Shown here: piece by piece, positions 2,385 to 36,033 of the stretch | Layout of the letters: each line of letters starts with the position of its first letter | How positions within the stretch are numbered: the stretch's first letter is position 1 | NCBI RefSeq assembly: GCF_000934845.1 | Contig: NZ_JXIQ01000025.1 | Span: 1-53,418, forward strand | DNA: 53,418 nt | Source: Mesobacillus subterraneus | Lineage (GTDB): Bacteria; Bacillota; Bacilli; Bacillales; Cytobacillaceae | Reading direction: 5' to 3' | Notes under the pieces: model-generated | Told to the model about the DNA's origin: nothing | Database searches by the model: none | What the model saw: only the letters and a program-made list of their open reading frames with translations | Translations under genes and position numbers: made by a program

Positions 2385-3857
2385 CTACATATGATGAAGA
2401 AATTCTTCGTCATTATATACATCATTCTTCATCATTAGATGGACAGCAGCTGTTTTAAATGCCTTTGGCAGCGCAAGTATAGAAGGATCATTACCAACGA
2501 ATTTTTTCTTTGCATCCTCTAAAGCTTCCTCAAAAGTTGCTCTCGTCTTTAGACCCATTCCTCTTGCAAAGCCTGGCATTTCTGCTCCAACAACATAAAT
2601 TGCGGCTGCATGTTTTTCGGCTATATGTCCACTAGAAATCATTGAAAATCCATGGAAGGGATGATATGAATATGCATAACGGTATTTTCGAATATATTCT
2701 TGGTTCGTTGCGAAATACTCTCCGAAATGATTTAGATCCTTTAGAGTATTCATACCATCTTTTTGGAAAAGTTCATACATCTCTTTTGTATATGGCCAGT
2801 TTTCTTCATGGAAATCGCCATTGCAGGTAGTTGAACAGATGATTACACATTTGTCACTCATTATCCTGCGATGTCGGACCACTTGGGCGGATATTGCTTG
2901 CATGAGCATGATGGGATTCGTTCCCATACCATCACCATAATGGAAGGATTGCGGCATGCCAAATACCAGGACATCATATTTTTTCTCTGCAAAAGGAACG
3001 AAAGTCCTTTTATTGGCTGTCGCCCAGGATTTGGGCTGCATTTCTTTGGCGTATCCACTATTAATCTCAATTTGCCTTGACTTCGTATCAAGGACAGCAT
3101 CACAGCAGAAAAACTTCTTTCCCATCCGTTTCTCCATATGTTCGCCGATTTCATCAAATTTTGTCCGCATTAATGATTTAGTGCTGACAGGTACAAAGTC
3201 CTTCCTATGCATAACTTTGGGTACGTGATGAGATGCTATCGATTTCCAATGGGTAATTCCTGTTGAACAGTGTTTATATCCGCCTGAATAGCCTCCATAC
3301 GGATTCCCTTGTGTATGTCCAATCAAAATGGCAATATCGCTATCGTACACATATTTATTCATGATGACGGGATCCCCGCTCTCAGTAGTGCCCAAATCTA
3401 TTAAGTTTTCATAGTCTTCACTATCATGATTGATTATTTGGTTTGAATACCAGAAATTGTTGAATATTTCCTCACCCAAAATGTTGAGGATTTCTTTTTC
3501 TGTGTTTTTTCTGTGAAGGCCATTCGAACAGATAAACTTAATATCTTCCTGCTTAACGCCCACACTATATAGCTCTTTCAAAATCAATTTTATGGAAACC
3601 TTTCTGTGGGCAGTTGGCTGTTCTCCCCCCTTTACCCTGTCAGGGAAGATAATCGCCACCTTCGCCCCTTCTTTTCCGACTTTTGTCAAAGGCTCCATTC
3701 CAATTGGGTTCCGAATTGATTCAAGGGTTGCTTTTTCAATTTCATCCTCTGGAATACATGGAGGATCCGGTACGGTTTCACCGGGCACAAACACGTCGGT
3801 ATTGTCAGGCAATTCTGCTTCCATGAGCCCATGTCCGTATTCAAATGATAGTTTCAC
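2385..3857 (-). CDS. LarA-family nickel-pincer hydroxyacid racemase/epimerase homologue
   Basis: A 490-residue member of the LarA family (DUF2088), which racemises or epimerises alpha-hydroxy acids by hydride transfer to the nickel-pincer nucleotide. Residues matching the Lactiplantibacillus LarA set, by my own alignment from memory: Asp73 (FPDR), His115 (GLHR), cofactor-attachment Lys195 (SGGYK) and a nickel-ligand His211 sixteen residues later. Where LarA has its second catalytic His, ten residues before the Lys, this protein has Asn185, and the PKD-type lysine motif of the C-terminal domain is absent. Substrate is therefore unlikely to be plain lactate. It is longer than classical LarA (about 425). 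GTG start lies directly after the TIM-like stop codon, so the genes are translationally coupled. larE, larB and larC, about 14 kb away, supply the cofactor. Confidence 0.85.
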   Translation of the reverse strand: MKLSFEYGHGLMEAELPDNTDVFVPGETVPDPPCIPEDEIEKATLESIRNPIGMEPLTKVGKEGAKVAIIFPDRVKGGEQPTAHRKVSIKLILKELYSVGVKQEDIKFICSNGLHRKNTEKEILNILGEEIFNNFWYSNQIINHDSEDYENLIDLGTTESGDPVIMNKYVYDSDIAILIGHTQGNPYGGYSGGYKHCSTGITHWKSIASHHVPKVMHRKDFVPVSTKSLMRTKFDEIGEHMEKRMGKKFFCCDAVLDTKSRQIEINSGYAKEMQPKSWATANKRTFVPFAEKKYDVLVFGMPQSFHYGDGMGTNPIMLMQAISAQVVRHRRIMSDKCVIICSTTCNGDFHEENWPYTKEMYELFQKDGMNTLKDLNHFGEYFATNQEYIRKYRYAYSYHPFHGFSMISSGHIAEKHAAAIYVVGAEMPGFARGMGLKTRATFEEALEDAKKKFVGNDPSILALPKAFKTAAVHLMMKNDVYNDEEFLHHM

Positions 3858-4721
3858 TTATATGCACCTGCTTTCCCTTGAATGATTTTTGCCCAAAAAG
3901 GTCTGGACAATGTCCAGGTATTCTTCAGGATAGAAGCCTATTTCTCCTTCAAATCTGGTTAAGGCAACTAGTCCGCCATCTATTTCCGGTATTGAAGCAA
4001 GCATGCCGGCATTTTCTGCCTTTAACCCTCCACCATATATGACAGGTAAGCCGTTTGTCTCTTGCTTTACAAATCTGGCAACTTCCTGGATGTAATCCTT
4101 GCCAGGTGGAGTTTTTTTTGGTCCAATTGCCCATATTGGCTCATATGCAATTGTGACACTACTCGTTTCTACTCCTTCGAGTCCTATTTTTAGTTGTTCA
4201 CGCAATATCTCCTGCCAGCGTTCCTGTTCTCCTTCTTTTTCTCCAATACAGTATAAAACAGACATTCCGGCTGCGATTGCAGCCTTGATTTCTTTATTTA
4301 ACAAGCGGTTTATCACATCTAACGAAGTCCCAGATGCTTCCCTGATTAAGTCTTCCTTATCATTTCTTTCTTCACTATGGCCAATAATTGTGTCCAAGCA
4401 CCCAATCGCCTTCATTGAATTAGCTGTACGATTGCTTGTGAATGCACCAAAGTTTCCTCCCTTGGCTGTATCTTCCCTGAAAACACTTTGACAGCCAATA
4501 GCTATATTCGTCTCCCCATTAACAGAGTTTAAAGCGTTAATTAAATGGGTTTCTGGCAAAAAAAAGACAAACTCTACTTCGTCGTTTGCATATTGCTTTA
4601 AACCTCCCATAGTGCTTCGAACAATGAAATTACCCCATTCGGGTGCTCTGGTAAAACGATTTATGCCGCCATATTCTGCCGGGATATCAAACCGTTTTAA
4701 ATTCGCATAAATCCGTTTCAT
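3858..4721 (-). CDS. Triose-phosphate-isomerase paralogue with altered phosphate loops
   Basis: A 287-residue TIM-barrel protein. The catalytic set of triose-phosphate isomerase is present: Asn7/Lys9 (YANLK), His115 (GHSEER) and Glu194 (YEPIWAIG). The phosphate-gripping loops are not: YGGS is YGGG (229-232), and the LVGG motif of the last loop reads LVAL (251-254). There is also about 20 residues of extra sequence before the catalytic His. It is probably an aldose-ketose isomerase acting on a small substrate other than, or in addition to, glyceraldehyde 3-phosphate. TIM paralogues with shifted substrates are known, for example in erythritol catabolism. ATG at 4721 is chosen because AAAGGTG lies six bases upstream. 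It is between the phosphofructokinase and LarA genes in one operon. Confidence 0.8.
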   Translation of the reverse strand: MKRIYANLKRFDIPAEYGGINRFTRAPEWGNFIVRSTMGGLKQYANDEVEFVFFLPETHLINALNSVNGETNIAIGCQSVFREDTAKGGNFGAFTSNRTANSMKAIGCLDTIIGHSEERNDKEDLIREASGTSLDVINRLLNKEIKAAIAAGMSVLYCIGEKEGEQERWQEILREQLKIGLEGVETSSVTIAYEPIWAIGPKKTPPGKDYIQEVARFVKQETNGLPVIYGGGLKAENAGMLASIPEIDGGLVALTRFEGEIGFYPEEYLDIVQTFLGKNHSRESRCI

Positions 4722-4757
4722 GATTATCACCTTTTAATCCCTTTAATTTGAGGAAAA

Positions 4758-5933
4758 CTACTTTCTTATCTCTTTATCTTTGAAACTGAGGAATTCAGGC
4801 AGTTCTTCACCAATTAAGGGTTTACACCACTGAATGAATTTTTCAGTCACATTATTCCCACGCTCATTAATAAAATGATCAGGAAGTTTTTTTTCGTGAA
4901 GCATAACTTCTTGAATTGGCACCAAGAATGTCTCGATTGAATACTTTTCTTCCGGCAAACGTCTTATACCCACCATTACACCTGTTCTGCCAGAAACAGC
5001 AGCTTGAACTGCCGTTCTCCCAACCAAAACGGCTTCTTCCTGATCAATTTTGGACTGAAGTGCTATAGAAGTTCTTCCTGCAAGACCAGGCTTCTCACCT
5101 CTGGCTTTAATTCCAAGTCTTTTAATAACGAGATTCGCTAAATATTCACTTACATCTCCGTAATAAACAGATCTGCCCCGCTGGAAAATAGGCGGTACGA
5201 TTGGTTCTTGTTCAGCGTTTTTTAATCCTTCACTTACAACCACAACAACTCCGCCCAAACGATCGTATAATTCCTTGACATCTTCCATGAATTCCTCTTC
5301 TACGAAGGGCCTTTCCGGCAAATAAATCAAATGCGGGGCATCCTCTTTTCTTTTTCTTGCTAACGCAGAAGCCGCTGTAATCCATCCCGCGTTTCGTCCC
5401 ATTGCTTCTATGATGGTGACATGGATCGGCAGCGATTTCACATCTGCCCCGATTTCCGCTGTTGTATGGGCTAAAAATTTTGCAGCGCTCCCGTATCCAG
5501 GTGCATGATCAATTATTGCAATATCATTATCGATTGTTTTTGGAATCCCAATCACATATATTTCTTCATTCTTACATACCTCATGGACTCTCCCGCATGC
5601 TTCCATTGTTCCGTTTCCACCATTGAATAGTACATATTTAATATCATGCTTTTTAAAGATATCTGGCATTTTCTCATAATGTTCCTGTTTCAAAGGAAAT
5701 CTGGATGAGCCTATTGCTGTTCCCGGTGTTTGCAGTAATAGGTCCAAATCAGCATCCTTAGTTGTGCCCAAATCTAAAAAGTTTTCTTTGAGGATTGCTT
5801 CAGAACCGCCAATAGCTCCGTAAATCTTATCTATACAAATATTATTTTGGGCCTCTTTAATGACTCCATATAGGGAGGAATTAAGGACAGCCGTTGGTCC
5901 ACCACCATGAACGATGAGTATATTATTCTTCAT
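4758..5933 (-). CDS. Phosphofructokinase-family sugar kinase (PPi-type features)
   Basis: A 391-residue phosphofructokinase of the long, pyrophosphate-type branch. Motifs: GGGP (10-13) at the phosphoryl-donor site, PKTIDND (131-137) with catalytic Asp135 and the Lys132 typical of PPi-dependent enzymes, and MGRNAGW (178-184). The donor-loop GGDG/GGDD motif reads GGNGT (105-109), so the metal-binding Asp is Asn107; donor preference cannot be read from sequence alone. The usual role is phosphorylating fructose 6-phosphate at C1. In this operon, beside a PGI homologue lacking a normal phosphate site, the acceptor may be a different ketose. It lies 36 bases after the PGI-like gene region and shares its operon. 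Confidence 0.82.
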   Translation of the reverse strand: MKNNILIVHGGGPTAVLNSSLYGVIKEAQNNICIDKIYGAIGGSEAILKENFLDLGTTKDADLDLLLQTPGTAIGSSRFPLKQEHYEKMPDIFKKHDIKYVLFNGGNGTMEACGRVHEVCKNEEIYVIGIPKTIDNDIAIIDHAPGYGSAAKFLAHTTAEIGADVKSLPIHVTIIEAMGRNAGWITAASALARKRKEDAPHLIYLPERPFVEEEFMEDVKELYDRLGGVVVVVSEGLKNAEQEPIVPPIFQRGRSVYYGDVSEYLANLVIKRLGIKARGEKPGLAGRTSIALQSKIDQEEAVLVGRTAVQAAVSGRTGVMVGIRRLPEEKYSIETFLVPIQEVMLHEKKLPDHFINERGNNVTEKFIQWCKPLIGEELPEFLSFKDKEIRK

Positions 5934-6020
5934 TGTTTTTATCGCCTCAATCTAATTCCATATGAACCGTCACCGGATACGGCTTAGAATAAAGAATCAA
6001 CATTATATATAGGATTTGGA

Positions 6021-7307
6021 TTAAAATCCCCTTCCCAATTTTTCGAACATCAGTTTTTTATAATCTTCTACTCCTGGCTGGTCGAATGGATTCACTCCAA
6101 GTATTCTGCCTGAAAGATAAACAGTGAATTCAAACAGATAAAACAATTGCCCTAAATAATATTCATTCATTTCCGGCACAGAAAATTTAACGCATGGTAT
6201 ACCTCCATTAAAGTGGGCTCCTATGGTGGCACCTAATGCAATTTTATTAATCTCCCAAAGATTTTCACCATTAACATAATCAAAGTTGTCTTCAACATGG
6301 TCTTTTTCGATCACTAAACTACTGTTAGGGTTTTCAATATCAAGAAATGTTTCAAAAATGATTGGCTGTCCTTGCTGAACGTATTGACCAATTGAATGCA
6401 AGTCTTCAGAATAGTTTACAGCCACAGGGAAAAGGCCCTTTCCCTCTTTCCCTTCACTTTCTGCGAATAATTGAATCCACCATTTTGAAAAATAGTGGAA
6501 CTGAGGTTCAAAAAAAGCGAGCATTTCAATTTTATAGCCTTTATCCAAGAGAATGTTCCTGAAAGTGGAATACTTTAATGCCAGATTATCAATATCTGTT
6601 TGGTTGTGCATCAGATCCTGCATTTTTTTGGCACCTTCAATCAGGCTAGAAATATCAATACCTGCAACAGCCATAGGAAGTAATCCAACATCAGTCAAAG
6701 CAGAAAATCTGCCGCCAATATTTTCAGGAAAAATAAAAAAATCAAAATTATGTTCCTTGGCAACCTGATGTAAAGAACTATTAATTGTACCGGTAACGGA
6801 TATTCGTTTATTAGTTTCATTGCCATATTTACTGTACAAGAAGTTCCGCAGAATACGGAAACTTAATCCAGGCTCTAAAGTTTCAAAATTTTTGGCAATG
6901 ACATTAATATAAACGGATTTACCCTCCAGCTGTTTTAGCAAGTTATTCATGTAATGTGGAGAAAGATTGTTGCCAGCATAGAGAATTTCAGGTTTACTTT
7001 CTTTTTGCAGAGCTTTAATTACTGCTCTTGCTGCCTGATTGGAACCTCCAACCCCGACAATCACAAAAACATCAGCTTCTTTTCTTATTGTTTCGGCTTT
7101 TTCTTTCACAAATTGTACAGCTTCATCACTGGCCCACTCTTCTACATCCATCCAGCCCCAGACATCATCCTGGTGGGAGGTCCTTTCCGAATAGACTTTT
7201 CCAAGCGCCTCATCCAGCCATTTTTTATTTTTACTTAACCGTTCGTTTAATTCCTGATCAGAAACAAATTGTTTATTTTGCAAAAATTCCAGTCTAATAT
7301 CATTCAT
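6021..7307 (-). CDS. Phosphoglucose-isomerase paralogue with altered phosphate site
   Basis: A 428-residue sugar isomerase (SIS fold) close in length to Bacillus glucose-6-phosphate isomerase. Catalytic elements are kept: GGR (Arg200), ESEGK (Glu283), GAH (His365) and YKK (Lys417), plus VNPFDQPGVE. The phosphate loop that reads SKSGTT or SKTFTT in the family is AKNFET here (138-143), removing a Ser and a Thr or Ser that normally hold the C6 phosphate; GVGGSN (85-90) replaces GIGGSY. It probably interconverts an aldose and a ketose that lack a 6-phosphate or carry another group there. The ATG at 7307 is chosen for AAGAAGGTG seven bases upstream; a longer frame would run into the previous gene. 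Confidence 0.83.
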   Translation of the reverse strand: MNDIRLEFLQNKQFVSDQELNERLSKNKKWLDEALGKVYSERTSHQDDVWGWMDVEEWASDEAVQFVKEKAETIRKEADVFVIVGVGGSNQAARAVIKALQKESKPEILYAGNNLSPHYMNNLLKQLEGKSVYINVIAKNFETLEPGLSFRILRNFLYSKYGNETNKRISVTGTINSSLHQVAKEHNFDFFIFPENIGGRFSALTDVGLLPMAVAGIDISSLIEGAKKMQDLMHNQTDIDNLALKYSTFRNILLDKGYKIEMLAFFEPQFHYFSKWWIQLFAESEGKEGKGLFPVAVNYSEDLHSIGQYVQQGQPIIFETFLDIENPNSSLVIEKDHVEDNFDYVNGENLWEINKIALGATIGAHFNGGIPCVKFSVPEMNEYYLGQLFYLFEFTVYLSGRILGVNPFDQPGVEDYKKLMFEKLGRGF

Positions 7308-7332
7308 GCCAAACACCTTCTTTTTGAGAATT

Positions 7333-8349
7333 TCACTTTTCCATTGAAACCCGTGACATTCGCTTAGCAGATTCATATATACCGAGTACTACTTCCAATG
7401 TCTTGATTGCATCATCCGGACTGACAGGCACTGGTTTATCATTTAACAGGCATTGATAATAGTGTTTTAGCTGGCTAGTATGATAGTTACTCCAATATGT
7501 CTCCCCTTCGCCTTTTATCTCCGCAGTTGGATGGATGATAAGCTCTTTTCCATTCAATCTAATTGTTACCTTTTCTCCTTCAAGCAAAATAGACCCATTT
7601 TCAGCACTCAATTCAATCCTGATCGGACTGTTGCTAGTAAAGTAATTGCAGGCGAAGAATGAATAAATGACCCCATTCTCGAATGTAATTGCAGCACTTG
7701 CAACATCCTCGACTTCGATTTGAGTAAGAACTCTTGTGTCTATTTGCGCTTTTATCGATTTCACTTCACTCCCGACCAAGTAACGGACCAAATCGATAGA
7801 ATGGATTGCCTGGTCAATAACGACCCCACCGCCTTCTTTTTCCCAGCTACCCTTCCATTCAATTTGATAGTATGAGGGAGGCCGATGCCAATTTAGCGAG
7901 GACCATGCACCAGTTATCTTTCCAAATGCCCCCTGGTCAATCAGCTTTTTCGCTTCAATAATTCCATCTATATATCTATTCTGGAATATTACTCCTAACT
8001 TTTTTCCAGTATTCTTAGCTGTTTCTGCCATGGCTCTACCATCTTCTAACGTTGTTGCGATTGGCTTTTCAGTCAAAACATTAAAGCCTGCTTCAAGACA
8101 CTGAATAACATGCTCCCTGTGCAAATAGTGCGGACTCAGAACATGAACGACGTCCAGGTTTTTCTGCAATAGATCCTCAATAGAGTCGGAATATTCACAG
8201 CCACTAAAGTTCATAGCAAATTTTTCTGCACGCCTCAAATCGATATCCAAGGCGTATTTTACTTCTATGTTGCTTAACCTTTTAAATGCTTCTGCATATA
8301 CAACAGAGATTCTTCCACAACCAATGACTCCAACCTTTAATTTATTCAT
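7333..8349 (-). CDS. Gfo/Idh/MocA-family NAD(P)-dependent oxidoreductase
   Basis: A 338-residue sugar or cyclitol dehydrogenase. The N-terminal Rossmann fold shows GVIGCGRIS (7-15), the family EKP motif is at 94-96, and the active-site pair IDQAIH gives Asp179 and His183. Enzymes of this family oxidise or reduce a single ring hydroxyl, commonly at C1 or C3. ATG at 8349 is preceded by AAGGAGG at good spacing; an upstream in-frame ATG lacks one. It follows the isomerase-like gene and precedes the PGI-like gene, so it should act early on the imported sugar. Confidence 0.85.
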   Translation of the reverse strand: MNKLKVGVIGCGRISVVYAEAFKRLSNIEVKYALDIDLRRAEKFAMNFSGCEYSDSIEDLLQKNLDVVHVLSPHYLHREHVIQCLEAGFNVLTEKPIATTLEDGRAMAETAKNTGKKLGVIFQNRYIDGIIEAKKLIDQGAFGKITGAWSSLNWHRPPSYYQIEWKGSWEKEGGGVVIDQAIHSIDLVRYLVGSEVKSIKAQIDTRVLTQIEVEDVASAAITFENGVIYSFFACNYFTSNSPIRIELSAENGSILLEGEKVTIRLNGKELIIHPTAEIKGEGETYWSNYHTSQLKHYYQCLLNDKPVPVSPDDAIKTLEVVLGIYESAKRMSRVSMEK

Positions 8350-8417
8350 TGATTTTCCTCCTTTTTTCGGTTTGAGTGGTTGTGACATAGCTTTTTTACT
8401 TGAGTGAAAGAATTCGT

Positions 8418-9290
8418 TTATATAAACTGTTTTAAATATTTTTGCCCTCTTATCAATCCAGCCTTAACTTTTTCCTGAGTCCCATCCCAAACGGGGTCTT
8501 CATGCTCGATACTTATGGTCCCATCGAATCCAACCTGGTTTAAATGATCAATGAATTTATTCCAATCAAGCTCCCCTAAGCCAGGTACTCTATATCTCCA
8601 CCATCCGGAAGAATCAATTTCTCCATTTTTCGGGTTGAACAAAATTCCAGTTCTTCGCAAGGTGGTATAATTTATTTCCGTATCTTTTGCGTGAACATGG
8701 CCAATTTTATGGCCGAACTCAAGAATAGGAATATAAGGATCGATGAATTGCCATATCAAATGGGAAGGGTCATAGGCAAGCTTCAGTTTGTCGCTGTCAA
8801 TTCGCGAAAAGATTTCATCCCACATATATGGAGAAATGCCTATATTCCCCATTAGAGGGCAGTTTTCTATACAAAGGGTTACGTTATTTTCCTCTGCCTT
8901 TTCAACCATTACTTTTAAAAATTCTACTGATGCTTCTATACTTTTCATGGGATTAAAACGGACTCCATCATATGCATCTTTAGAAACTCCTGTTGAGCAA
9001 AGCACTTTTTCTATATTAAATTCCCCTGCCAACTCTATCCTTTTAATAATGTTACTTTTGTAATATTCTGCCATTTCGCTGTTAGGATCCAAAAAGTTCC
9101 TGCAATATGTTAGGGCAGAAATGTCTATTGTCCCGGAACTTTTGATTTTTTCAACTTCATCTTCTTTTAAGTCGACCGACGGCCCAACTTCCAAATCTGT
9201 AAATCCATTTTCATATCCCCAAGTAGCCAGGTCCTTCAGGTCACTAACTCCTGATTCGGCCAACACATTTGTCAAAAAACCTACGCGCAT
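8418..9290 (-). CDS. Xylose-isomerase-like TIM-barrel sugar isomerase/epimerase or lyase
   Basis: A 290-residue protein of the sugar phosphate isomerase/epimerase (AP endonuclease 2) superfamily. The expected divalent-metal ligands are visible: Glu142 (IENCP), Asp174 and His177 (YDPSH), His200 (HVHAKD) and a Glu in SIEHED (262-264). Members act as keto-sugar isomerases, epimerases or, beside Gfo/Idh dehydrogenases, as beta-eliminating or hydrating enzymes on 3-keto glycosides, as in levoglucosan degradation. Sandwiched between two Gfo/Idh genes, the second kind of role is plausible here. Start has AAGGAGG seven bases upstream. Confidence 0.8.
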   Translation of the reverse strand: MRVGFLTNVLAESGVSDLKDLATWGYENGFTDLEVGPSVDLKEDEVEKIKSSGTIDISALTYCRNFLDPNSEMAEYYKSNIIKRIELAGEFNIEKVLCSTGVSKDAYDGVRFNPMKSIEASVEFLKVMVEKAEENNVTLCIENCPLMGNIGISPYMWDEIFSRIDSDKLKLAYDPSHLIWQFIDPYIPILEFGHKIGHVHAKDTEINYTTLRRTGILFNPKNGEIDSSGWWRYRVPGLGELDWNKFIDHLNQVGFDGTISIEHEDPVWDGTQEKVKAGLIRGQKYLKQFI

Positions 9291-9308
9291 GATGTATACC
9301 TCCTTGAT

Positions 9309-10349
9309 TTAATGATTTGCAAGCATGTCATCTATCATTTGCTGAATGAATTTTGCATGCCTAATCGTTCTTTCGTTTGTTGCTTTACCATAAACACAAT
9401 CGGCAAAATTCTGGATGATACCATTATGTCCGCCTTTTCCTTCCAATTCCACCACTGTTTTATCTTCAGCTTGATATGCGCCTTCTTTATTTTTTAACCA
9501 AACGCTGATTTCATTAGGTCTGCTGAAATCACCGCATACCATGCCTCCTTCACCAACCACTTCAATGGTATGGTTGCATACGCCGACACGGCTGGCTGAA
9601 AAAGATAACAACGCACCACTTTCAGTCTTCGCGATAAACATGGCTGAATCATCATTAGTCACAGTTCTTTTTTCTTTTGTTGCTGGATCGTTTCTTTCAT
9701 TAATATGAGTAGACGAAACCAGTTTGAAATCCTTCAATTTACCTTCCGATGCGGATAGTAAGTAATAAGCTAAATCCAGCATGTGGCAGCCAAAGTCACT
9801 TACCGCTCCTGGTCCTGACTGTTCCTTATCCATTCGCCATTCCCGTTCTACACTTTTATCCGCTATCCTGTTTCCTCCAAGCTGCTGCCTGCATGTATAA
9901 ATTGCGCCTAGTTTTCCACTATCAATTAATTCTTTTATAAATTCATATATTGGGAATTCCCTATAGTTAAAGCTTACCATTGAAATTACGTCAGCATTCG
10001 ATTCTGCCGCCTTTAACAACTCATCCACTGACTTAGCATTTACGGCAATTGGTTTTTCCACTAATATATGTTTATTGTGGTCCAAGGCTTTAATAGCAAC
10101 CTCAATATGCTGGTCATTTGGAACGCAAATTGACACGGCATCCACCATCCCCAACAGTTCCTCATAACTGTCACAAATCTTTACATTTTCTAGATTGTTA
10201 CGAGAGTAAAAGGATCTAGCCATCTCCTTATCAATATCGTATATGGCTGCCAGCACGGTATCATCGCAGTTATTTATACCCTCCAAATGATTGCTGGCAA
10301 TACCTACTGTCTTTCCTGTCCCAACAATACCGAATCTTATTTTGTTCAT
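9309..10349 (-). CDS. Gfo/Idh/MocA-family oxidoreductase
   Basis: A 346-residue second dehydrogenase of the family, clearly different from the one at 7333-8349. Features are GIVGTGK (7-13), EKP at 98-100 and a DFGCH active-site motif giving Asp185 and His189. Two such enzymes flanking one TIM-barrel protein suggests one oxidises the substrate and the other reduces the product, regenerating the cofactor. It lies 18 bases upstream of the TIM-barrel gene and 45 bases downstream of the permease gene, in the same operon. Confidence 0.85.
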   Translation of the reverse strand: MNKIRFGIVGTGKTVGIASNHLEGINNCDDTVLAAIYDIDKEMARSFYSRNNLENVKICDSYEELLGMVDAVSICVPNDQHIEVAIKALDHNKHILVEKPIAVNAKSVDELLKAAESNADVISMVSFNYREFPIYEFIKELIDSGKLGAIYTCRQQLGGNRIADKSVEREWRMDKEQSGPGAVSDFGCHMLDLAYYLLSASEGKLKDFKLVSSTHINERNDPATKEKRTVTNDDSAMFIAKTESGALLSFSASRVGVCNHTIEVVGEGGMVCGDFSRPNEISVWLKNKEGAYQAEDKTVVELEGKGGHNGIIQNFADCVYGKATNERTIRHAKFIQQMIDDMLANH

Positions 10350-10393
10350 CAGAATGAAACATCACCTTTCGATTGTTTATCTTTTTAGATGTC

Positions 10394-11221
10394 CTACTTT
10401 ACCGCACCCGTAGTAAGTCCACCCATAATTCTTTTCCTCATGATCATGTACAAAATTAAAACAGGGAGCAATGCTAGAACGAATGCAGCAAACGCCATCG
10501 TGAAATCTACGGAATAAGTGCTTTGGAAGTTATAAACGAACATTGGAAGTGTCCACTTATCCGGGGCTGCGCTCAATACAATCAATGGCATCTGAAAATC
10601 ATTCCATATCCATAAAGCATCTTTTATAATGATGGTGGCTAAAATAGGTTTCATTAAGGGATATGTAATTTTGGTAATGGTTTGAATTCGCGAACACCCA
10701 TCTATTTCGGCTGCTTCTTCTATTTCAATAGGTAAAGTTTTTATGTACCCTACCAAAAGAAAGACATCCTGGGTAAGCGCTCCGGCTACGTATAGCAATA
10801 TCAATCCCGTATGGTTCATTAAACCCAAATCAGACAAGAGCTTTACAATCGGTACCATCTTTACCTGAAAGGGGACAAATATCCCAAGCAAAATAAAGTA
10901 AAATAAAAATTTATAATACTTATTTTTATCCATATTCCTTGCGATAGAAAAAGAGATCAGCGGAGCAACGATCAGAATCAATATGACTCCAATAATGGTT
11001 ATAAATAGTGAATTGGTGAGGTATTGAAAGTAATTCGATGTATTGATCACTTTAATAAAGTTTGTGAAATTCAAGTTTTCTGGTAACGCGAAGAAGCTTT
11101 TGGATAGCTCCTGTGTTGTTTTCATGGCATTTATTATGCTTAAATACAGCGGTCCAATTATTAAAATACTACCTATAAGCAAATATAAGTATTTCCCCAT
11201 CTGTGTCAATCGGTAAATCAT
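10394..11221 (-). CDS. Carbohydrate ABC transporter permease (MalG type)
   Basis: A 275-residue inner-membrane permease with six predicted helices. The EAA motif that docks the ATPase is EEAAEIDGCSRIQTITKITYPLMKP in the fifth cytoplasmic loop (begins near residue 167). Length and C-terminal ending are typical of MalG-type subunits. It overlaps the stop of the MalF-type gene by four bases (ATGA). No ATPase gene is in the cluster, so a shared MsmX-like ATPase elsewhere is expected, as in Bacillus subtilis. Confidence 0.92.
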   Translation of the reverse strand: MIYRLTQMGKYLYLLIGSILIIGPLYLSIINAMKTTQELSKSFFALPENLNFTNFIKVINTSNYFQYLTNSLFITIIGVILILIVAPLISFSIARNMDKNKYYKFLFYFILLGIFVPFQVKMVPIVKLLSDLGLMNHTGLILLYVAGALTQDVFLLVGYIKTLPIEIEEAAEIDGCSRIQTITKITYPLMKPILATIIIKDALWIWNDFQMPLIVLSAAPDKWTLPMFVYNFQSTYSVDFTMAFAAFVLALLPVLILYMIMRKRIMGGLTTGAVK

Positions 11222-12117
11222 TCAGCTGACACCTCCTTTTTCTGGGTTAATTTAACCTGGATCAGTGAAATCGCTGCAATCAGCAAAAAAACTATTACTC
11301 CCACTGTTACCGAGTAGCCGAACCTTCGTTCTTCAAATGCGAGTTTATAAATCAAAGTCCCAATAGATTCAGTTGCACCAGCTGGACCACCACCCGTGAT
11401 GGCCATTACATAGTCGAAGACTCCCAAACCGGCTTTAAGCTGTAAAATGAACACTATACTAATGGTAGGGATTAAATAAGCGAAGGTTACATGCTTGAAT
11501 TTTTGGCTGTAGCTAGCCCCGTCCATTTCAGCTGCCTCATACAATTCGCCAGGCACGTTTTGAAGTGCAGCAGCGAACAATACCATAGGGATGGCCGTTG
11601 CAGTCCAGATATTTGCAAAGAGGATACCAAACCCCGCCATGTCAGGATTTGATAAAATATTTGTAGAAAGGGCCTCAATACCAAGATTTTGCCCAAGTGC
11701 CGGCAATGCCCTATAATACATTTCCTTAAAAATCATTCCAACAGTAACTAAGCTCATTACGGCAGGCACAAAGAAAACGGTAGTAAAAAAAGAAAAGCCT
11801 TTTAAATTTTTGGATTCTAAAATCAAAGCTATAGTTATAGCAAAAAATATGACTCCCACTATCAAAAAGAAAGAATACTTAAAAGTGAATCCTAAAGTTT
11901 CAATGAAACGTTCATCGTCAATCAATCTTTGATAGTTTTCAAATCCAATTACATTGAATTGCTGGCTGATTCCATTCCAGTCTGTGAAACTGTAGAAAAG
12001 CCCCATTAAAAGGGGGATAACAAAAAAAACAGAATAAATAATAAGTCCTGGCAACGTTATAAAAAAATCGGTTAAACGTTTCGAACCTTTCTCCCTGTTT
12101 TTGCCATTAAATGCCAT
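11218..12117 (-). CDS. Carbohydrate ABC transporter permease (MalF type)
   Basis: A 299-residue permease with six predicted helices and a MalF-type EAA loop (YEAAEMDGASYSQKF, second half of the protein). With the MalG-type subunit it forms the channel for the sugar delivered by the lipoprotein encoded upstream. The ATG at 12117 is chosen because a run containing GGAGGAGG precedes it; an in-frame ATG at 12150 would add an acidic tail upstream of that site. Confidence 0.9.
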   Translation of the reverse strand: MAFNGKNREKGSKRLTDFFITLPGLIIYSVFFVIPLLMGLFYSFTDWNGISQQFNVIGFENYQRLIDDERFIETLGFTFKYSFFLIVGVIFFAITIALILESKNLKGFSFFTTVFFVPAVMSLVTVGMIFKEMYYRALPALGQNLGIEALSTNILSNPDMAGFGILFANIWTATAIPMVLFAAALQNVPGELYEAAEMDGASYSQKFKHVTFAYLIPTISIVFILQLKAGLGVFDYVMAITGGGPAGATESIGTLIYKLAFEERRFGYSVTVGVIVFLLIAAISLIQVKLTQKKEVSAE

Positions 12118-12166
12118 TTCCACTTCCTCCTCCACTCCAACGATCTCCATATCCTGGACCTCACTT

Positions 12167-12211
12167 ACAACGTTTAAGATAATGATTTTAGAATCACATC
12201 TTAAACGTTGT
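12167..12211. promoter_or_regulatory. Perfect 13-bp inverted repeat between binding-protein and permease genes
   Basis: ACAACGTTTAAGA (12167-12179) and TCTTAAACGTTGT (12199-12211) are exact inverted repeats 19 bases apart. As RNA they would form a strong hairpin after the binding-protein gene with no T-run, a common device for stabilising and over-expressing that gene. Each arm also contains AACGTTTAA, the core of the LacI-type boxes seen upstream, so a pair of repressor sites is the alternative. Confidence 0.6.
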
Positions 12212-12263
12212 ATAGCAATTGGCCCAAAGTCTGAAGATGTAGATATTCCTTTCCCTCTAAAAT

Positions 12264-13514
12264 CTATTTGTTATAGATTTGCTTTACTGCTTTGTCCAGC
12301 TTTTTCATAGAAGCATCAACATCACCAGTTGCAATTAAATCTTGTAAAACTTTGTTAAACTCCGTCACCATCCCTGGGGCCCAATAGTTCCTTGGAATTT
12401 TAAAGTTTTTACCTTCTTTTATCGCGTTCGTCACTGCCTCAAGCTCAGGTACCGATGATTCTACGCCATTAACCAATGATGGAGATCCTTCGATATCATG
12501 GAATTTTTGTGCAGTTTCTTTCTTTGTCAACCATTCCAAAAAGATTTTCGCCTCTTTTTTATACTCTGAATCTTTGGAAATCGCTAACCCATAATCCATA
12601 TTGGTTCCAACCTTAGTCTCTGCTTCTGTCTTGCCAGGTACCAAGAACATGGATATGTTCAGATCAGGATTTGCTTCCTTAATTAGAGGCAGGGCAAATG
12701 TTCCCTGATACATCATTGCGGCTTTACCATTCGCAAATTCATTTATTGCTTGTTCATAACCAACGCCAAGGCTGTCTTTTTGGCCGTATTTGTGCAATTT
12801 CAAAATAAACTCCGCTACTTCTTTCATACCTTGATGATCTGCTGCAGAAGCTTTCCCTTCTGCAATATCCTTGAACAGTTCACCCTTATCATCGAAAAAC
12901 AGCCCAGTTAACCTATCACCTAATGCTCCAATAGTCCATAGTTCCTGGTCAGAAAAAGATAAGCCCATGATTCCTTTAGATTTGAAATAGTCCAAAACTT
13001 CAAATAGTTCATCTTGCGTTTTTGGTATTTCAATATCATGTTCATTAAAAAGATCCACATTGTAGTAAATTCCAGTACCATTGGCCAAATACGGAACAAA
13101 GTAATTTACTCCATCAATTTTATTATCATCCACCACATCCTGACTGAAATTAGATTTAAGGAATTCTTCTTTGGTTAAATCGATAAAATACCCTTCATAA
13201 ACAAGCCCTAACTCCGCAGTATTATACGGGAATGTTGCTATGTCAGGCATATCATTGGCGACTGCTCTCGTTTGCAGGACAGTGGCTGTCTCAGGAGGAT
13301 TGTTTACAGTAACTTTGATGTTTGGGTATTCCTTGTGAAACTGTTCAAGTATTTTTGGCCAAACTGAATTTAATTCGGGTTTGTGGGATACGACTTCTAA
13401 CTCAACTGCACCCTTTCCTGAACTTTCTCCACTCGTTTCCTTACTACTGCTGCATGCAGCCAGAAGTGTACCTACAATCAACAGCACTATTAAAAATTGC
13501 AGTGTCTTTCTCAT
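12264..13514 (-). CDS. Extracellular solute-binding lipoprotein for sugar ABC transporter
   Basis: A 416-residue family 1 solute-binding protein. A lipoprotein signal peptide is clear: MRK, hydrophobic core, then lipobox LLAAC with the lipidated Cys near residue 21, followed by a Ser-rich linker. It captures the substrate outside the membrane and passes it to the two permeases. It is the first structural gene of the leftward operon, and the upstream region (13520-13760) carries cre-like and LacI-type boxes. Confidence 0.92.
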   Translation of the reverse strand: MRKTLQFLIVLLIVGTLLAACSSSKETSGESSGKGAVELEVVSHKPELNSVWPKILEQFHKEYPNIKVTVNNPPETATVLQTRAVANDMPDIATFPYNTAELGLVYEGYFIDLTKEEFLKSNFSQDVVDDNKIDGVNYFVPYLANGTGIYYNVDLFNEHDIEIPKTQDELFEVLDYFKSKGIMGLSFSDQELWTIGALGDRLTGLFFDDKGELFKDIAEGKASAADHQGMKEVAEFILKLHKYGQKDSLGVGYEQAINEFANGKAAMMYQGTFALPLIKEANPDLNISMFLVPGKTEAETKVGTNMDYGLAISKDSEYKKEAKIFLEWLTKKETAQKFHDIEGSPSLVNGVESSVPELEAVTNAIKEGKNFKIPRNYWAPGMVTEFNKVLQDLIATGDVDASMKKLDKAVKQIYNK

Positions 13515-13683
13515 AATTCCCCTCCTAAATAATCATAATTTCTTCAATGATCGACTCAAATTATACTTTGAATTTATCCACTCTCACCTACCCTCTGTTA
13601 ATGTACTTCATTGACATTCAGCATTGAGTTTCACACAACAAATGACACGGTTTACAATTTCATCCTATCATAGGTGATTAAAA

Positions 13684-13713
13684 TGTAAACGCTTTTTTAG
13701 TTAAACGTTTTAC
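13684..13713. promoter_or_regulatory. cre-like box and LacI-type operator upstream of the importer operon
   Basis: TGTAAACGCTTTTT (from 13684) matches a CcpA cre site closely, and GTTAAACGTTTTAC (13700-13713) is a near-palindrome with the CG centre typical of LacI-family operators. Similar boxes stand at 16269 and 16448, upstream of the aldolase and lar genes, which suggests that one regulator controls the whole cluster. Confidence 0.6.
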
Positions 13714-13751
13714 ATATAAATTCTTATTTTACGCTGAATTTATTAGCTTTT

Positions 13752-13790
13752 AAAAATAAAAAAGGATCCCGATTTATGGAATGGGACCCG
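13752..13790 (-). terminator. Terminator after the LacI-type regulator
   Basis: On the minus strand GGGTCCC pairs with GGGATCC (one G-T pair) and is followed by TTTTTTATTTTT. It lies 33 bases after the regulator stop codon. Confidence 0.65.
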
Positions 13791-13822
13791 AGTTGTTTAT
13801 GGCTGGCTTTATCTATCTAATT

Positions 13823-14878
13823 TTATTTTGTTTTCGTTATATCCATACAGCTTTCACGCTCTATTATAGAATAAGGTAACTCGATCTTCATAGGGATTTT
13901 TTTTCCGTTATTTATTCGATCGATCAATAGTTTAGCGGTGACCTTCCCGAGTTCTTCCCGGGGAACATGAATGGTAGTGATCATCGGAGAAACATATTGG
14001 ACAGTATCGATATCATCTATTCCCATGATGGAAATATCCTCTGGAACCTTCAAGTCACTTTCCTTAATGGCCTTGACAGCACCAATCGCAGATAAATCAT
14101 TTCCGCAAAAAATTGCTGTGACCTCTCTTTTATCTTTTAAATATTCCTTGGTAGCCAAGTAACCGTATTCGGAAGAAAATTGGCATTCTATGATATTTTC
14201 ATTTCTTACAGTCAAATTTAATTGCCTCATTGCATCACAATAACCCTGGTACCTAACTTCGTTTTTAGTTTCTCCTAAATACGCAATCTTTGTGTGCCCG
14301 AGTCTATTTAAATACTTTACAACAGAAATTGCTGCCTGGTAGCCATCAGTCAAGACCTGGTCATAGTCAGCATGTGCTACCTTATTCAACCCGGTATATA
14401 CGATATATTTGTAATGCTTTTTTATGAAACTTAGTAAATGTTTATCAAACCTTCCCAGGATTGCGACACCATCAACATTATAAGAGGAAATGAGCTCGTA
14501 TGTTTTGGGGTCATTAATGTCATATCCTGAAAAGGAATATTTTAATATGTATCCCAGTTTAAACGCTTCACGTTCCAGTGAACGGGCAATTTCTGAAAAA
14601 AATGGATTGCTGTCACCAACAGTTGAACGTGCATAGATACACCCAATCGTCTTTGATTGGGTCTTCTGCGGAAAGTGAGAATCCTTCATTTTCAATCTGC
14701 GCGCAGTGGCATTTGGTACGTAGTTTGTCTGCCTTACTATGTCCCAGATCTTGCTCTGCACATCTTTGCTCGCAACTTTGGTATTACTATGATTAATGAC
14801 CCTTGATACAGTTGTTATAGAGACCCCTGCCATTTTCGCAATATCTTTTAACGTTACTGAACTTTGATCATTTTCCAT
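13823..14878 (-). CDS. LacI-family transcriptional regulator of the sugar cluster
   Basis: A 351-residue regulator. The N-terminal LacI helix-turn-helix reads TLKDIAKMAGVSITTVSRVI (about 9-28), followed by a hinge and a periplasmic-binding-protein-like effector domain. ATG at 14878 has GGAGGGG four bases upstream; the longer frame does not. It sits between the aldolase gene and the importer operon on the same strand. Operators with a TNAAACGTTT core at 13700, 16269 and 16448 are the likely targets; the effector should be the imported sugar or an early intermediate. Confidence 0.9.
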   Translation of the reverse strand: MENDQSSVTLKDIAKMAGVSITTVSRVINHSNTKVASKDVQSKIWDIVRQTNYVPNATARRLKMKDSHFPQKTQSKTIGCIYARSTVGDSNPFFSEIARSLEREAFKLGYILKYSFSGYDINDPKTYELISSYNVDGVAILGRFDKHLLSFIKKHYKYIVYTGLNKVAHADYDQVLTDGYQAAISVVKYLNRLGHTKIAYLGETKNEVRYQGYCDAMRQLNLTVRNENIIECQFSSEYGYLATKEYLKDKREVTAIFCGNDLSAIGAVKAIKESDLKVPEDISIMGIDDIDTVQYVSPMITTIHVPREELGKVTAKLLIDRINNGKKIPMKIELPYSIIERESCMDITKTK

Positions 14879-14954
14879 ATTACCCCTCCAAAAGGTCAAT
14901 TGCTAATCCTTAAATCTTGTTCCTCTTAAGTATGCCTGTTAATCTAAGTCCAAT

Positions 14955-16094
14955 CTAAATACGAACCATATCGTCCAATGAAAGAAGTTCAACCAAAGGG
15001 GCTTTGCCAGCAGAACCAAAGTTCACAATTAAGGACCCTGCAATTTCCTTTACTGCTAATTCAACGGAATTGATTATTGCTGCTACATCGTCATCAAGAA
15101 TTTTACCAGAAGTAACCGTGTCCATAATGGGTTGGAAGAATACTCGTGGATCTACTTGTTTTCTGTTTTCTTCCAGGAGTTGATATATCGCTCCTACTGA
15201 ATCGCTGTTTTTCATAGCGGGAGATTTCATAAATAATTCTCTCAAATTCCTTGTAGTCGCCAGTCGGATGTCTGTATCGACATTTATTTTGTTGATCCCA
15301 GCAGAAATTGCCTTCTTCAATTCACCAATTGAAATTCCTTGAGCGCCCTCAACAATTCCCCCATAACCATTTATTTCGTCCACAATATGTCCAGGTATGG
15401 TAGAAGAACCATGGGAAACAATGGCACAAAATATCCCTTCATGTCTAAGTATTTCTTTAATAGCAACGACTATTTCTCTTCTTAGCTTAACATCTTTCCC
15501 TTTATTTGGCCCATGCATTGTACCATAGGAAATTGCTAAGCTGTCAACTTCAGTCCTTTTTATGAAATCAAGCGCTTGCAGAGGATTGGTATAGGTTGAT
15601 TGGTTTGAGAAAACATGATCCTCAACACCAGCCAACACGCCTAGTTCACCTTCAACTGTAACCCCTCTGGCATGTGCATACTTGACTACTTCCTGCGTCA
15701 GTTCTATATTTTCTTCATAAGGAAGAGAAGAACCATCAATCATTACAGACGTGTACCCGCCATCAATTGCTGCCTTAACAGATTCTAAATCTTTGCCGTG
15801 ATCTAAGTGAAGTACTATGGGAATAGGCGAATTCTCTGCATATTTCTTTACAGCATCACCTAGTAGCTTCGCTCCCTTCCTTTTATCTTCAATGGTTGAA
15901 CTGATGAAGTCAGTTCTCCCCCCCATAAAGCCATTCGCTAAATCTGCACCTTGAATTAATGCTGGAGATCTAAACATTTCATGAACTTCGATGATTGCTT
16001 TTACCTGCGCAATCGTATTGACGTTAAATGCAGGCTGCCCAAAGCGATATCTTTCTGTAGCGTGAAGCAAAGGCATTAATGGAATTAATGGCAT
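14955..16094 (-). CDS. Class II fructose-bisphosphate-aldolase family protein
   Basis: A 379-residue zinc aldolase of the longer class II kind. Motifs: HLDHG (96-100) with Asp98 and zinc His99, VEGELG (147-152), GTMHG (191-195) with His194, SHGSS (227-231) with His228, and NVDTD (271-275). It should split a ketose bisphosphate, or here a ketose 1-phosphate analogue, into dihydroxyacetone phosphate and an aldehyde. AGAAGGAG stands five bases before the ATG. It is encoded 76 bases upstream of the LacI-type gene, while its logical partners (PGI-, PFK- and TIM-like) lie in the next operon. Confidence 0.85.
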   Translation of the reverse strand: MPLIPLMPLLHATERYRFGQPAFNVNTIAQVKAIIEVHEMFRSPALIQGADLANGFMGGRTDFISSTIEDKRKGAKLLGDAVKKYAENSPIPIVLHLDHGKDLESVKAAIDGGYTSVMIDGSSLPYEENIELTQEVVKYAHARGVTVEGELGVLAGVEDHVFSNQSTYTNPLQALDFIKRTEVDSLAISYGTMHGPNKGKDVKLRREIVVAIKEILRHEGIFCAIVSHGSSTIPGHIVDEINGYGGIVEGAQGISIGELKKAISAGINKINVDTDIRLATTRNLRELFMKSPAMKNSDSVGAIYQLLEENRKQVDPRVFFQPIMDTVTSGKILDDDVAAIINSVELAVKEIAGSLIVNFGSAGKAPLVELLSLDDMVRI

Positions 16095-16268: not shown

Positions 16269-16282
16269 CTCAAACGTTTTAT
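16269..16282. promoter_or_regulatory. LacI-type operator-like box
   Basis: CTCAAACGTTTTAT has the AAACGTTT palindromic core shared with 13700-13713. It lies about 175 bases upstream of the aldolase start. Confidence 0.45.
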
Positions 16283-16447
16283 CTCTCTTAGCGCTACACA
16301 CACTTTTTTTATAATGTTTAAACTAGAGCTCCGAAACCTTTTAGAACCTATTAATTATTTCATAGTATTGCTAATTAATGATAAATATAAATTAGTAGAT
16401 CACATAATTTAAAAGGGTTTTTATTTCTAATGAGGATTATCATCCTT

Positions 16448-16460
16448 GTTAAACGTTTGC
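16448..16460. promoter_or_regulatory. LacI-type operator-like box
   Basis: GTTAAACGTTTGC repeats the sequence of the 13700 box almost exactly (shared GTTAAACGTTT). It sits in the divergent region between the aldolase and larE genes. Confidence 0.5.
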
Positions 16461-17074: not shown

Positions 17075-17893
17075 ATGCTTCATGAAAAATATATAAAACT
17101 TAAATCAATACTTAGAGAAATGGAATCCGTGGCTGTTGCTTTTTCAGGCGGTGTAGACAGCACTTTTTTATTGAAAGTGGCAGTCGATGTGCTTGAACCA
17201 GAAAATGTGGTGGCGATAACGGCTAATTCAGAATCATTCCCCTCAGTTGAACTAGAAGAATCGAAAGCATTGGCCAGCCTTATTGGGGCAAAACATATTA
17301 TAATAGAAACTTCAGAGTTGAACCTGCCCGGCTATGCCGAAAATACCAAAGATAGATGCTATTTCTGCAAAAAAGGACTGTTTAACGACGTATATCCGAT
17401 TATGAATAAATATGGATTCAAAAATGTGGTGTATGGGTTGATTGCCGATGATATGGGCGATCATCGTCCTGGTTTAAGAGCAGCCAAAGAGCTTGATGTT
17501 CGAGGTCCGTTGCAGGAGGCAGGTTTATATAAGACTGAAATTCGTGAATTATCTAGGGAGATTAAGTTGCCGACATGGGACAAACCAGCCATGGCTTGTC
17601 TATCTTCGAGGATCGCTTATGGCGAAACGATTACACAAGAAAAACTAACAAAAGTAGAAAAATCAGAGTTCTTTATAAAGAAGCTTGGTATTAGGCAGGT
17701 TAGGGTAAGAACTCATGAAGAAATTGCCCGTATTGAAGTGGATCCCCCTGATCTCAAAGTGATCCTCGAAAACTACAAGGTGGTTTCCAATGCACTTGAA
17801 TCATATGGCTACAAGTATGTAACACTAGACCTGGCAGGGTACAAAAGTGGCAACATGAATAAGATGATTGCACAAGGAGTTTCAAAGGTATAA
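17075..17893 (+). CDS. larE: LarE, sacrificial sulfur transferase of nickel-pincer synthesis
   Basis: A 272-residue PP-loop ATP pyrophosphatase. SGGVDS (24-29) binds ATP. LarE adenylates the pyridinium carboxylates made by LarB and converts them to thiocarboxylates. Cys175 (MACLSSR) matches the sulfur-donating Cys of Lactiplantibacillus LarE. DRCYFCK adds Cys95 and Cys98, so this may be the three-cysteine kind that uses an iron-sulfur cluster and is not consumed. It opens the lar operon with a strong AAAGGAGGG site and precedes larB by 33 bases. Confidence 0.93.
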   Translation: MLHEKYIKLKSILREMESVAVAFSGGVDSTFLLKVAVDVLEPENVVAITANSESFPSVELEESKALASLIGAKHIIIETSELNLPGYAENTKDRCYFCKKGLFNDVYPIMNKYGFKNVVYGLIADDMGDHRPGLRAAKELDVRGPLQEAGLYKTEIRELSREIKLPTWDKPAMACLSSRIAYGETITQEKLTKVEKSEFFIKKLGIRQVRVRTHEEIARIEVDPPDLKVILENYKVVSNALESYGYKYVTLDLAGYKSGNMNKMIAQGVSKV

Positions 17894-17926
17894 CTACTCA
17901 CAAAACAATTAGGGGTTGATATGTAA

Positions 17927-29055: not shown

Positions 29056-29074
29056 GTTCACGAGGTAGATGGTG

Positions 29075-30001: not shown

Positions 30002-30038
30002 TTAATACAAGACCCCAAAAAAGAAAGGTCTGATCATC

Positions 30039-32033: not shown

Positions 32034-32057
32034 AATACTATTATTGGAGGCAATGAA

Positions 32058-33281: not shown

Positions 33282-33282
33282 G

Positions 33283-36020: not shown

Positions 36021-36033
36021 GGGGGAAAATCAA

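Follow-up and report, generated by a model that had tools for sequence, protein, structure and literature searches.

The window, a stretch of 53,418 nucleotides from Mesobacillus subterraneus (NCBI RefSeq contig NZ_JXIQ01000025.1), carries on its minus strand, between positions 2385 and 16094, a glycolysis-like cassette of twelve genes, all of them intact open reading frames (ORFs) in the ORF listing of the window. Pfam and NCBIfam profile scans upheld the families of all twelve proteins. The gene set proposed in an earlier note on this DNA is thus real, every named gene being intact and of the family given, although its count of eleven falls short of the twelve cassette genes plus lar genes that are present. 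An asterisk (LarA*, TIM*, PFK*, PGI*, FBA*, NagA*, NagB*) marks the cassette version of an enzyme throughout.

From the low-coordinate end, LarA* (2385..3857), a single-histidine nickel-pincer enzyme with a Lar_N match, is followed by TIM* (3858..4730; PF00121), a triosephosphate-isomerase homologue with rewritten phosphate loops; by PFK* (4758..5933), which Pfam, NCBIfam and a tree place in the pyrophosphate (PPi)-PFK-like subfamily NF010675 and which has the motifs GGNGT and PKTIDND; and by PGI* (6021..7376; Pfam and NCBIfam), a phosphoglucose-isomerase homologue. Next come a Gfo/Idh oxidoreductase (7333..8388), an AP_endonuc_2 TIM barrel (8418..9290) and a second Gfo/Idh oxidoreductase (9309..10349), all assigned by Pfam, for which we propose the putative roles of 3-keto-sugar reductase, lyase/hydratase or epimerase, and glycoside 3-dehydrogenase, respectively. 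This trio, including homologues of the first oxidoreductase, recurs beside the cassette in three relatives (L035, L055 and L061; Hungatella and Streptococcus moroccensis). Two ABC sugar permeases (10394..11221 and 11218..12150), both with PF00528 (BPD_transp_1) matches and nearest in NCBIfam to GlcU/MalG and UgpA/MalF, respectively, at scores below cut-off, precede a solute-binding lipoprotein (12264..13514; SBP_bac_1). A LacI-family regulator (13823..14899; Pfam) and FBA* (14955..16094; PF01116), a class II aldolase homologue, complete the cassette. Among the listed ORFs of at least 120 aa in this interval, no sugar kinase was found besides the PFK homologue, in agreement with the earlier statement that there is no hexokinase, and no ABC ATPase was seen.

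The larEBC genes, which the earlier note placed in the same cluster, are present and all exceed NCBIfam cut-offs, but they lie beyond its end, on the plus strand (17075-19923). The larE gene (17075..17893) scored 355.7 bits against TIGR00268 (cut-off 150) and larB (17927..18715) scored 292.8 bits against NF033503 (cut-off 175). The larC gene consists of two overlapping frames, larC1 (18696-19469) and larC2 (19450-19923), which are over cut-off for TIGR00299 and NF052512 and between which the PF01969 match is split. We take this arrangement to resemble that of L. plantarum, where a frameshift presumably joins the frames.

Conservation, spread and regulation of the cassette

A contig scan confirmed 281 LarA relatives, and the best 80 loci were kept for counts, which were made with tblastn because ORF-based rows missed genes hidden under longer antisense ORFs. 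A co-oriented TIM gene was found in 74 of the 80 loci, in 70 of these within 350 bp of LarA. Of the LarA loci, 59 exceed 20 kb; among these, 55 had TIM, 52 had PFK or a ketohexokinase, 43 had the aldolase and 40 had all three, so that the conserved co-occurrence suggested earlier as a check on the cluster goes beyond chance. Six loci lacked TIM: L012 and L072 have a beta-hydroxyacid-dehydrogenase-family gene adjoining LarA, L044 is a contig end, and the other three are L060, L063 and L078. More widely, TIM* is missing from all four genomes (L012, L072, L096 and L097) in which such a reductase-like protein, carrying DxPVLGRP, adjoins LarA*.

Further loci were compared in a set of 27, in which four places were entered twice (L005/L092, L007/L094, L008/L095 and L011/L098). 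Three deeper relatives (L094, L095 and L098; three genomes of one family) have divergent PFK, aldolase, TIM*, LarA* and TauE together, which suggests that TIM* and LarA* treat the three-carbon half of the sugar. In L093, an operon at 4254-13223 combines TIM* and LarA* with two TTT-type transporters, DapA-like aldolases, an SDR, an SMP-30 lactonase-like protein, an arylsulfotransferase-family protein and GcvH, and is perhaps an Entner-Doudoroff-like version of the pathway. L097 carries, near LarA*, a second, distant LarA homologue (990-2267, plus strand; 25% identity) whose neighbours are TTT-type transporter genes and an IlvD-family dehydratase.

In a phylum sample, 8 of 398 genomes, the window's own included, carry a LarA relative at 1e-60. 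Within the window's own order, this LarA was found in that genome alone of 299, and in none of seven other genomes of the genus, from which we infer that the cassette was acquired horizontally; it has probably spread in this way. Plasmid records yielded no LarA match at 1e-30.

The earlier note described the cluster as LacI-controlled, and a shared operator-like motif in the relatives strengthens this claim. Across the 80 loci there are 59 copies of the decamer CAAACGTTTG, spread over 51 loci and never inside a recognised gene; 51 of the 59 copies have a cassette gene match at most 450 bp downstream (PFK 33, TauC 10, larC 4, PMI 2, TauE 1 and LacI 1); the exact decamer was counted 5 times in 482 kb of control sequence that had not been cleared of cassette loci. 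In the window the picture is suggestive. The core AAACGTTT occurs seven times against 1.66 expected, a number reached by none of 100 shuffles: three lie between cassette genes (13703, 16272 and 16451), one in a permease gene and three elsewhere. The first is a putative operator core between the LacI and solute-binding protein genes (13703..13710), and the other two belong to putative operator-like sites, CAAACGTTTT at 16271 and TAAACGTTTG at 16450 (16271..16459), between FBA and larE. The exact CAAACGTTTG decamer is found in the window solely outside the cassette, at 38032 and 40672. With cores inside and exact decamers outside, joint control of the lar genes and the cassette, which the motif supports in relatives, is only suggested in the window.

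Active sites, kinases and entry modules

Most genomes with a cassette also hold the ordinary enzymes. A canonical TIM is present elsewhere in all 12 cassette genomes searched (308-343 bits, against 100-128 for TIM*), as is a host PFK (350-403 bits); an FBA copy above 320 bits was found in 12 of 12 genomes searched, two of which are sulfo-EMP2 rather than cassette genomes (EMP, Embden-Meyerhof-Parnas), and a second PGI in nine of ten PGI*-bearing genomes, the L028 genome having the cassette copy only. The earlier note held that normal activity of the homologues, together with a lack of host copies elsewhere, would count against its reading; ordinary TIM, PFK, PGI and FBA are all present outside the cassette in the window's genome.

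When aligned with host copies, the cassette enzymes keep their catalytic columns and differ where phosphate is bound. PGI* has AKNFETLEPG for the host phosphate loop SKSGTTTEPA, with the catalytic Arg, Glu, His and Lys columns kept, and the consensus A-K-x-F-x-T-x-E-P-G holds in at least 95% of 18 rows; one row labelled as host in the motif alignment, L206, is a cassette-type copy by motif. In TIM* the host YGGS becomes YGGG and the last loop reads ALTRF, with the His and Glu columns kept. K12 is present in at least 95% of the rows of a 76-row alignment in which five places are entered twice, the Lys column being judged from cassette rows as host N-termini are misaligned; R13, K206 and R259 are each present in at least 90-95%. 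Alignments with solved relatives gave similar results for three further enzymes. NagB* has Ile and His at the phosphate Arg and Lys of the canonical deaminase, in NagA* the Arg of the REPG motif is His, and FBA* keeps GSS and NVDTD of the 1-phosphate side with CSR replaced by GAD-L on the other. These residues are presumed to have the roles usually assigned to them in the phosphate sites of PGI, TIM, NagA, NagB and FBA. Basic residues are invariant at several positions (R225, R230, R234 and R238 of NagB*; K276, R278, K281 and R287 of PFK*), and the 6-phosphate sites thus appear to have been rebuilt with basic residues and not emptied. Sites so rich in invariant Arg and Lys suggest, as far as sequence can tell, that C6 carries an anion other than phosphate. 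The families, order of reactions and catalytic columns are otherwise those of the canonical EMP pathway with amino-sugar entry (Pgi, NagA, NagB, Pfk, Fba and Tpi), from which the cassette enzymes compared differ in their rewritten 6-phosphate sites and as paralogues separate from the host enzymes.

Two substitutions bear on the reaction order. Six loci have a ketohexokinase (Pfam Khk in the one of six proteins scanned), and PFK* is absent from the available stretch in all six, two of the stretches being short, so that the ketohexokinase probably stands in for PFK*. That a non-homologous C1 kinase occupies this position speaks for a ketohexose that lacks a 6-phosphate and is phosphorylated at C1. 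The sequence of isomerisation, C1 phosphorylation and aldol cleavage of a hexose without a C6 phosphate, as first read from the gene order, is accordingly supported by the kinase swap and by the lost 6-phosphate motifs. The entry enzymes are also exchanged: by tblastn, PGI was found in 20, NagA in 43, NagB in 39, an SIS protein in 4 and a PMI-like protein in 3 of the 80 loci, with PGI, NagB, SIS or PMI in 49. None of these four reached threshold in 18 of the 59 long loci, among which L078 has a weaker SIS match and L035 and L055 have a protein of the N-acetylglucosamine (GlcNAc) 2-epimerase family. Such swapping suits glucose, mannose, GlcNAc and N-acetylgalactosamine (GalNAc) forms of one class of C6-modified sugar.

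The window LarA is, by its sequence, a member of the single-histidine LarA subfamily (LarA_Sp and LarA_Bw; PDB 9q2u, 9q3k and 9q3j) published in 2025 (PMC12611868), whose active-site residues it shares as a close homologue; it matches 9q2u with 909.9 bits and 9q3j with 803.4 bits over about 480 residues. LarA racemases have two histidines, one per enantiomer (accessible portion of PMC12611868). In LarA*, Asn (N185) replaces the second catalytic His, and Lys stands in place of the carboxylate-binding Arg, with the NPN Lys and nickel His present. H115, N185, K195, H211, H306, Y307 and H402 (window numbering) each occur in at least 95% of the 79 rows of an alignment that includes seven more distant relatives with 47-67% identity to the window protein. 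The portion of that paper accessible here reports that lactate racemisation by LarA_Sp was not detected (data not shown there) and that LarA_Sp held a ligand of 316.5 Da, given without identity; with this missing racemisation and the Asn in place of His, the window LarA is not a typical alpha-hydroxy-acid racemase. The same portion describes glycolysis-like neighbours in two genomes, naming PGI, PFK and TIM in S. plurextorum, and proposes a role in carbohydrate metabolism, giving neither substrate nor pathway. The description of the system as undescribed thus falls for the LarA subfamily and its neighbours and stands, as far as that portion goes, for substrate and pathway. Added here are the wider cassette, the motif, the ketohexokinase and the sulfur-linked genes. 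Our literature search, which reached neither preprints nor most subscription papers, found among the matches listed no published description of the pathway; nothing on glyceraldehyde sulfate, fructose 6-sulfate or dihydroxyacetone sulfate; no report of the use of 6-sulfated GlcNAc or GalNAc, the glycosaminoglycan material being ecology only; only a general review joining sulfolactaldehyde, hydroxyacetone sulfonate and methylglyoxal; and no pathway joining sulfosugars with a racemase, triose, PGI/PFK or LarA.

The C6 substituent and the proposed pathway

Genes linked to sulfur recur beside the cassette. Importers of the NitT/TauT (sulfonate/taurine) type were found in 36 of the 80 loci and 2 of 113 control loci, TauE/SafE in 19 and 2, and sulfatases in 11 and 1, with at least one of the three in 57 of the 80. 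The controls were drawn from 133 loci around TIM, PFK, FBA, PGI, SqvB and aldehyde dehydrogenase genes, of which 20 bearing LarA were dropped to leave 113 (430 kb), and some of these still touch cassette genes. Per 100 kb, importers stood at 2.34 against 0.46 in controls, and two sulfatase groups at 0.65 against 0 and 0.58 against 0.23; importers thus differ clearly from the controls, TauE and sulfatases moderately. TauE shares the strand of LarA in all 19 loci and lies downstream of it within 5.4 kb in 16; profile and tblastn searches each gave 19 loci, 18 of them in common, and Pfam confirmed TauE in four scanned proteins, one from each of four sequence clusters. In the deeper relatives TauE lies within 1.1 kb in four of seven places. 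At L012 the neighbours of LarA* are only the reductase-like gene, larE and a TauE-like gene (profile only, E 2.6e-9). Two scanned sulfatases have PF00884 with an SGSH-type C-terminus, and a radical SAM/SPASM protein in four loci is read as a sulfatase-maturing enzyme. CUT1 and NitT/TauT importers are seldom together (CUT1 in 8 loci, 2 of which also have NitT/TauT). Finally, 6 of the 80 loci contain a FucI-family protein, a distant relative of the sulfoquinovose isomerase SftI, which is its sole NCBIfam match.

These recurrent importers, TauE/SafE proteins, sulfatases and SftI relatives point to a C6 sulfate or sulfonate. Sulfonates were among the substrates first listed for the cluster; the sugar acid then favoured is not the best fit, as the same genes point elsewhere. 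What was observed is the gene set with its conservation and common motif, the rewriting of phosphate sites, the exchange of entry modules and the replacement of PFK* by a ketohexokinase; from this we infer that the C6 group bears sulfur, what each substrate is and, most tentatively, the reaction of LarA*. A conserved, jointly regulated pathway for C6 sulfo-sugars is most likely, and we think it probable, though far from certain, that the cluster encodes an EMP-type route dedicated to hexoses, and in relatives also to hexosamines, with a C6 sulfate ester or sulfonate. Sulfatases and hexosamine modules favour a 6-O-sulfate, which is found on mucin and glycosaminoglycan sugars. A sulfonate such as sulfoquinovose is weakly suggested by the SftI relative, by the kinase subfamily and by an aldehyde dehydrogenase that two genomes carry near the cassette; as a marker that dehydrogenase (54-55% to the one of a sulfo-EMP2 cluster) was rejected as not specific, the window genome having 49-50% copies elsewhere.

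In the pathway we propose, the anionic sulfur group at C6 would take the place of the phosphate otherwise added by hexokinase. In the window a glycoside would be imported by the ABC transporter, and the Gfo/AP_endonuc_2/Gfo trio would free or invert the sugar via a 3-keto intermediate, by analogy with what we take to be the levoglucosan (LgdA-C) and YcjQRS 3-keto-glycoside routes. These share a Gfo/Idh dehydrogenase, an AP_endonuc_2 partner and a second Gfo/Idh enzyme with the window, where the trio is followed by PGI* and where the best NCBIfam match of the second oxidoreductase, levoglucosan dehydrogenase, scores 129.5 bits, far below the cut-off of 650. PGI* would then yield the ketose, PFK* would phosphorylate C1, and cleavage by FBA* would give dihydroxyacetone phosphate (DHAP) and a three-carbon aldehyde carrying the sulfo group, which TIM* would convert to the ketone. 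LarA* would apply nickel-pincer hydride chemistry to this three-carbon sulfo unit, so that most cassettes would need no further dedicated redox enzyme. One base could be enough for a 1,2-hydride shuttle within the molecule, or for abstraction of a hydride as a leaving group departs.

Given a sulfo substrate, we tentatively put forward hidden-redox release of sulfite or sulfate as the reaction of LarA*; C2 epimerisation seems a little less likely, and the rest of our expectation falls to other isomerisations, such as a 1,2-hydride shift. The boldest form, a new nickel-pincer reaction in which hydride is moved to the adjacent carbon of a non-carboxylate three-carbon sulfo compound and sulfite or sulfate is expelled with one His being enough, we consider unlikely. 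Expulsion is supported by the strand that TauE shares with LarA, by the neighbours at L012 and by the absence of TIM* from the four genomes with the reductase-like partner. If true, it would allow redox-neutral use of all six carbons, free of oxygen and radicals, with release of inorganic sulfur. More generally, 6-sulfated mucin or glycosaminoglycan sugars, or sulfoquinovose, would be usable with the sulfur group still attached, and a TIM homologue and a nickel enzyme would replace the reductive or oxidative last step of known sulfoglycolysis. The reading offers a candidate pathway and a short list of substrates for the orphan single-histidine LarA enzymes, and it predicts a sulfo-sugar route in various gut Lachnospiraceae, spirochaetes, streptococci and bacilli.

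By analogy, the cassette may work like sulfo-EMP glycolysis (YihSTUV; for sulfo-EMP2, SqvD, SqiK and SqiA). As described in the accessible portions of the respective papers, sulfo-EMP2 comprises a PF00365 kinase, a PF01116 aldolase and the isomerase SqvD and ends in sulfolactate or 2,3-dihydroxypropane-1-sulfonate (PMC9594981), and sulfo-EMP-type sulfoglycolysis lacks the hexokinase step (PMC12965863). The cassette likewise has a PF00365 C1 kinase, of the same NF010675 subfamily, a PF01116 class II aldolase and no hexokinase, and would likewise produce DHAP and a three-carbon sulfo-aldehyde; it differs in having PGI*/NagB* instead of SqvD, an aldolase of another clade, and TIM* and LarA* in addition. 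We compared it with three clusters containing SqvB, an SftI-like isomerase, kinase and aldolase, with SftI confirmed in L162. In trees of few sequences (FastTree, midpoint root), PFK* shares a clade (support 0.94) with the sulfo-EMP2 kinases and with further PPi-type PFKs, to the exclusion of PfkA, these other PPi-type PFKs nesting closer than the SqiK-type kinases within this broad clade, and FBA* forms its own clade (0.97). SqvB (PF16161) had no match in the window genome, no SqvD-type ORF was among the listed window ORFs, and no sulfolactaldehyde reductase or dehydrogenase was among those of the cassette. Because FBA* lies outside the sampled aldolases and SqvB has no match, we rejected the label of sulfo-EMP2 member.

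Several points weigh against a C6 sulfo-sugar. None of the three sulfur markers is found in 23 of the 80 loci, which are moreover related to one another, and TauE reaches only 1.23 per 100 kb against 0.46 in controls. The match of the FucI-family protein to SftI, at 224 bits, is well under the cut-off of 700. Other anions, too, are carried by members of the NitT/TauT and TauE families. The listed ORFs of the window include no sulfatase or NitT/TauT gene, and a family scan of the membrane protein downstream of LarA* gave no TauE match, so that any sulfur link of the window itself would come from relatives. FBA* does not join the three sampled sulfo-EMP2 aldolases, and the window PGI* has gained a Glu in the old phosphate loop, which is odd for anion binding. 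Where a sulfatase is present, there would be no need for a pathway that tolerates sulfate, unless the enzyme acts at another position. Moreover, we know of no C6-sulfonate hexosamine, so that one LarA* would have to serve two substrates, a sulfate from hexosamines and a sulfonate from glucose.

Two alternatives, the uronate and the free-sugar readings, were weakened by the analysis. A hexuronate or aminouronate with a C6 carboxylate, which we regard as improbable, would be cleaved to DHAP and tartronate semialdehyde, with TIM* giving hydroxypyruvate and LarA* acting on the alpha-hydroxy acid. The hydroxy acids on which known LarA homologues act include sugar acids (accessible portion of PMC11770544), and the basic residues could equally bind a carboxylate; L093 and L097 have TTT-type transporters, DapA-like aldolases and SMP-30 or IlvD proteins, which are frequent in routes for sugar acids, and the reductase-like partner of LarA* in L097 best matches tartronate semialdehyde reductase, at 197 bits, below the cut-off of 340.75. 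However, that partner has LGRP where carboxylate-binding relatives presumably have SGG, LarA* has Lys for the carboxylate-binding Arg and no second His, no lactate racemisation is reported for LarA_Sp, and the sulfatases, TauE, sulfonate-type importers and SftI relative are left unexplained. More improbable still is a route for a free sugar with a 6-hydroxyl, or for a 6-deoxy sugar, whose ketose 1-phosphate would be split into DHAP and glyceraldehyde or lactaldehyde. Loss of the 6-phosphate site and the ketohexokinase fit a neutral C6, and the PGI* loop Glu could hold a hydroxyl, but the invariant Arg and Lys of TIM*, NagB* and PFK* suggest an anion, the sulfur-linked neighbours again go unexplained, and common routes already exist for glucose, mannose and amino sugars in their free form. 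A phosphonate, a phosphodiester or some other group at C6 has a lower probability again; its support is that C6 is apparently blocked by a non-phosphate anion, and no phosphonate genes were noticed in the loci examined, in which no search was aimed at them. The reading as a spare set of ordinary glycolysis genes accompanied by a lactate racemase, for which the family names alone speak, we rejected as very improbable given the conserved synteny, the rewritten motifs, the host copies elsewhere and the single-histidine LarA.

Other features of the window

Downstream of LarA* lies a gene for a hydrophobic protein of 458 aa (555..1931, minus strand), with no Pfam or NCBIfam match and no homologue in the 27 loci compared; as a guess, it is possibly an exporter of the product. 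Further away, a Yhf-type cluster on the plus strand (29069-37704) contains a YhfZ regulator, a phosphotriesterase-family protein, a YhfS-like protein, a metalloenzyme, a YhfX-like protein, an amidase-like protein and YhfT. On the minus strand (38664-40357), an IS200-like Y1 transposase adjoins a Mg-chelatase-family (ComM-like) ORF that is apparently shortened to 255 aa.

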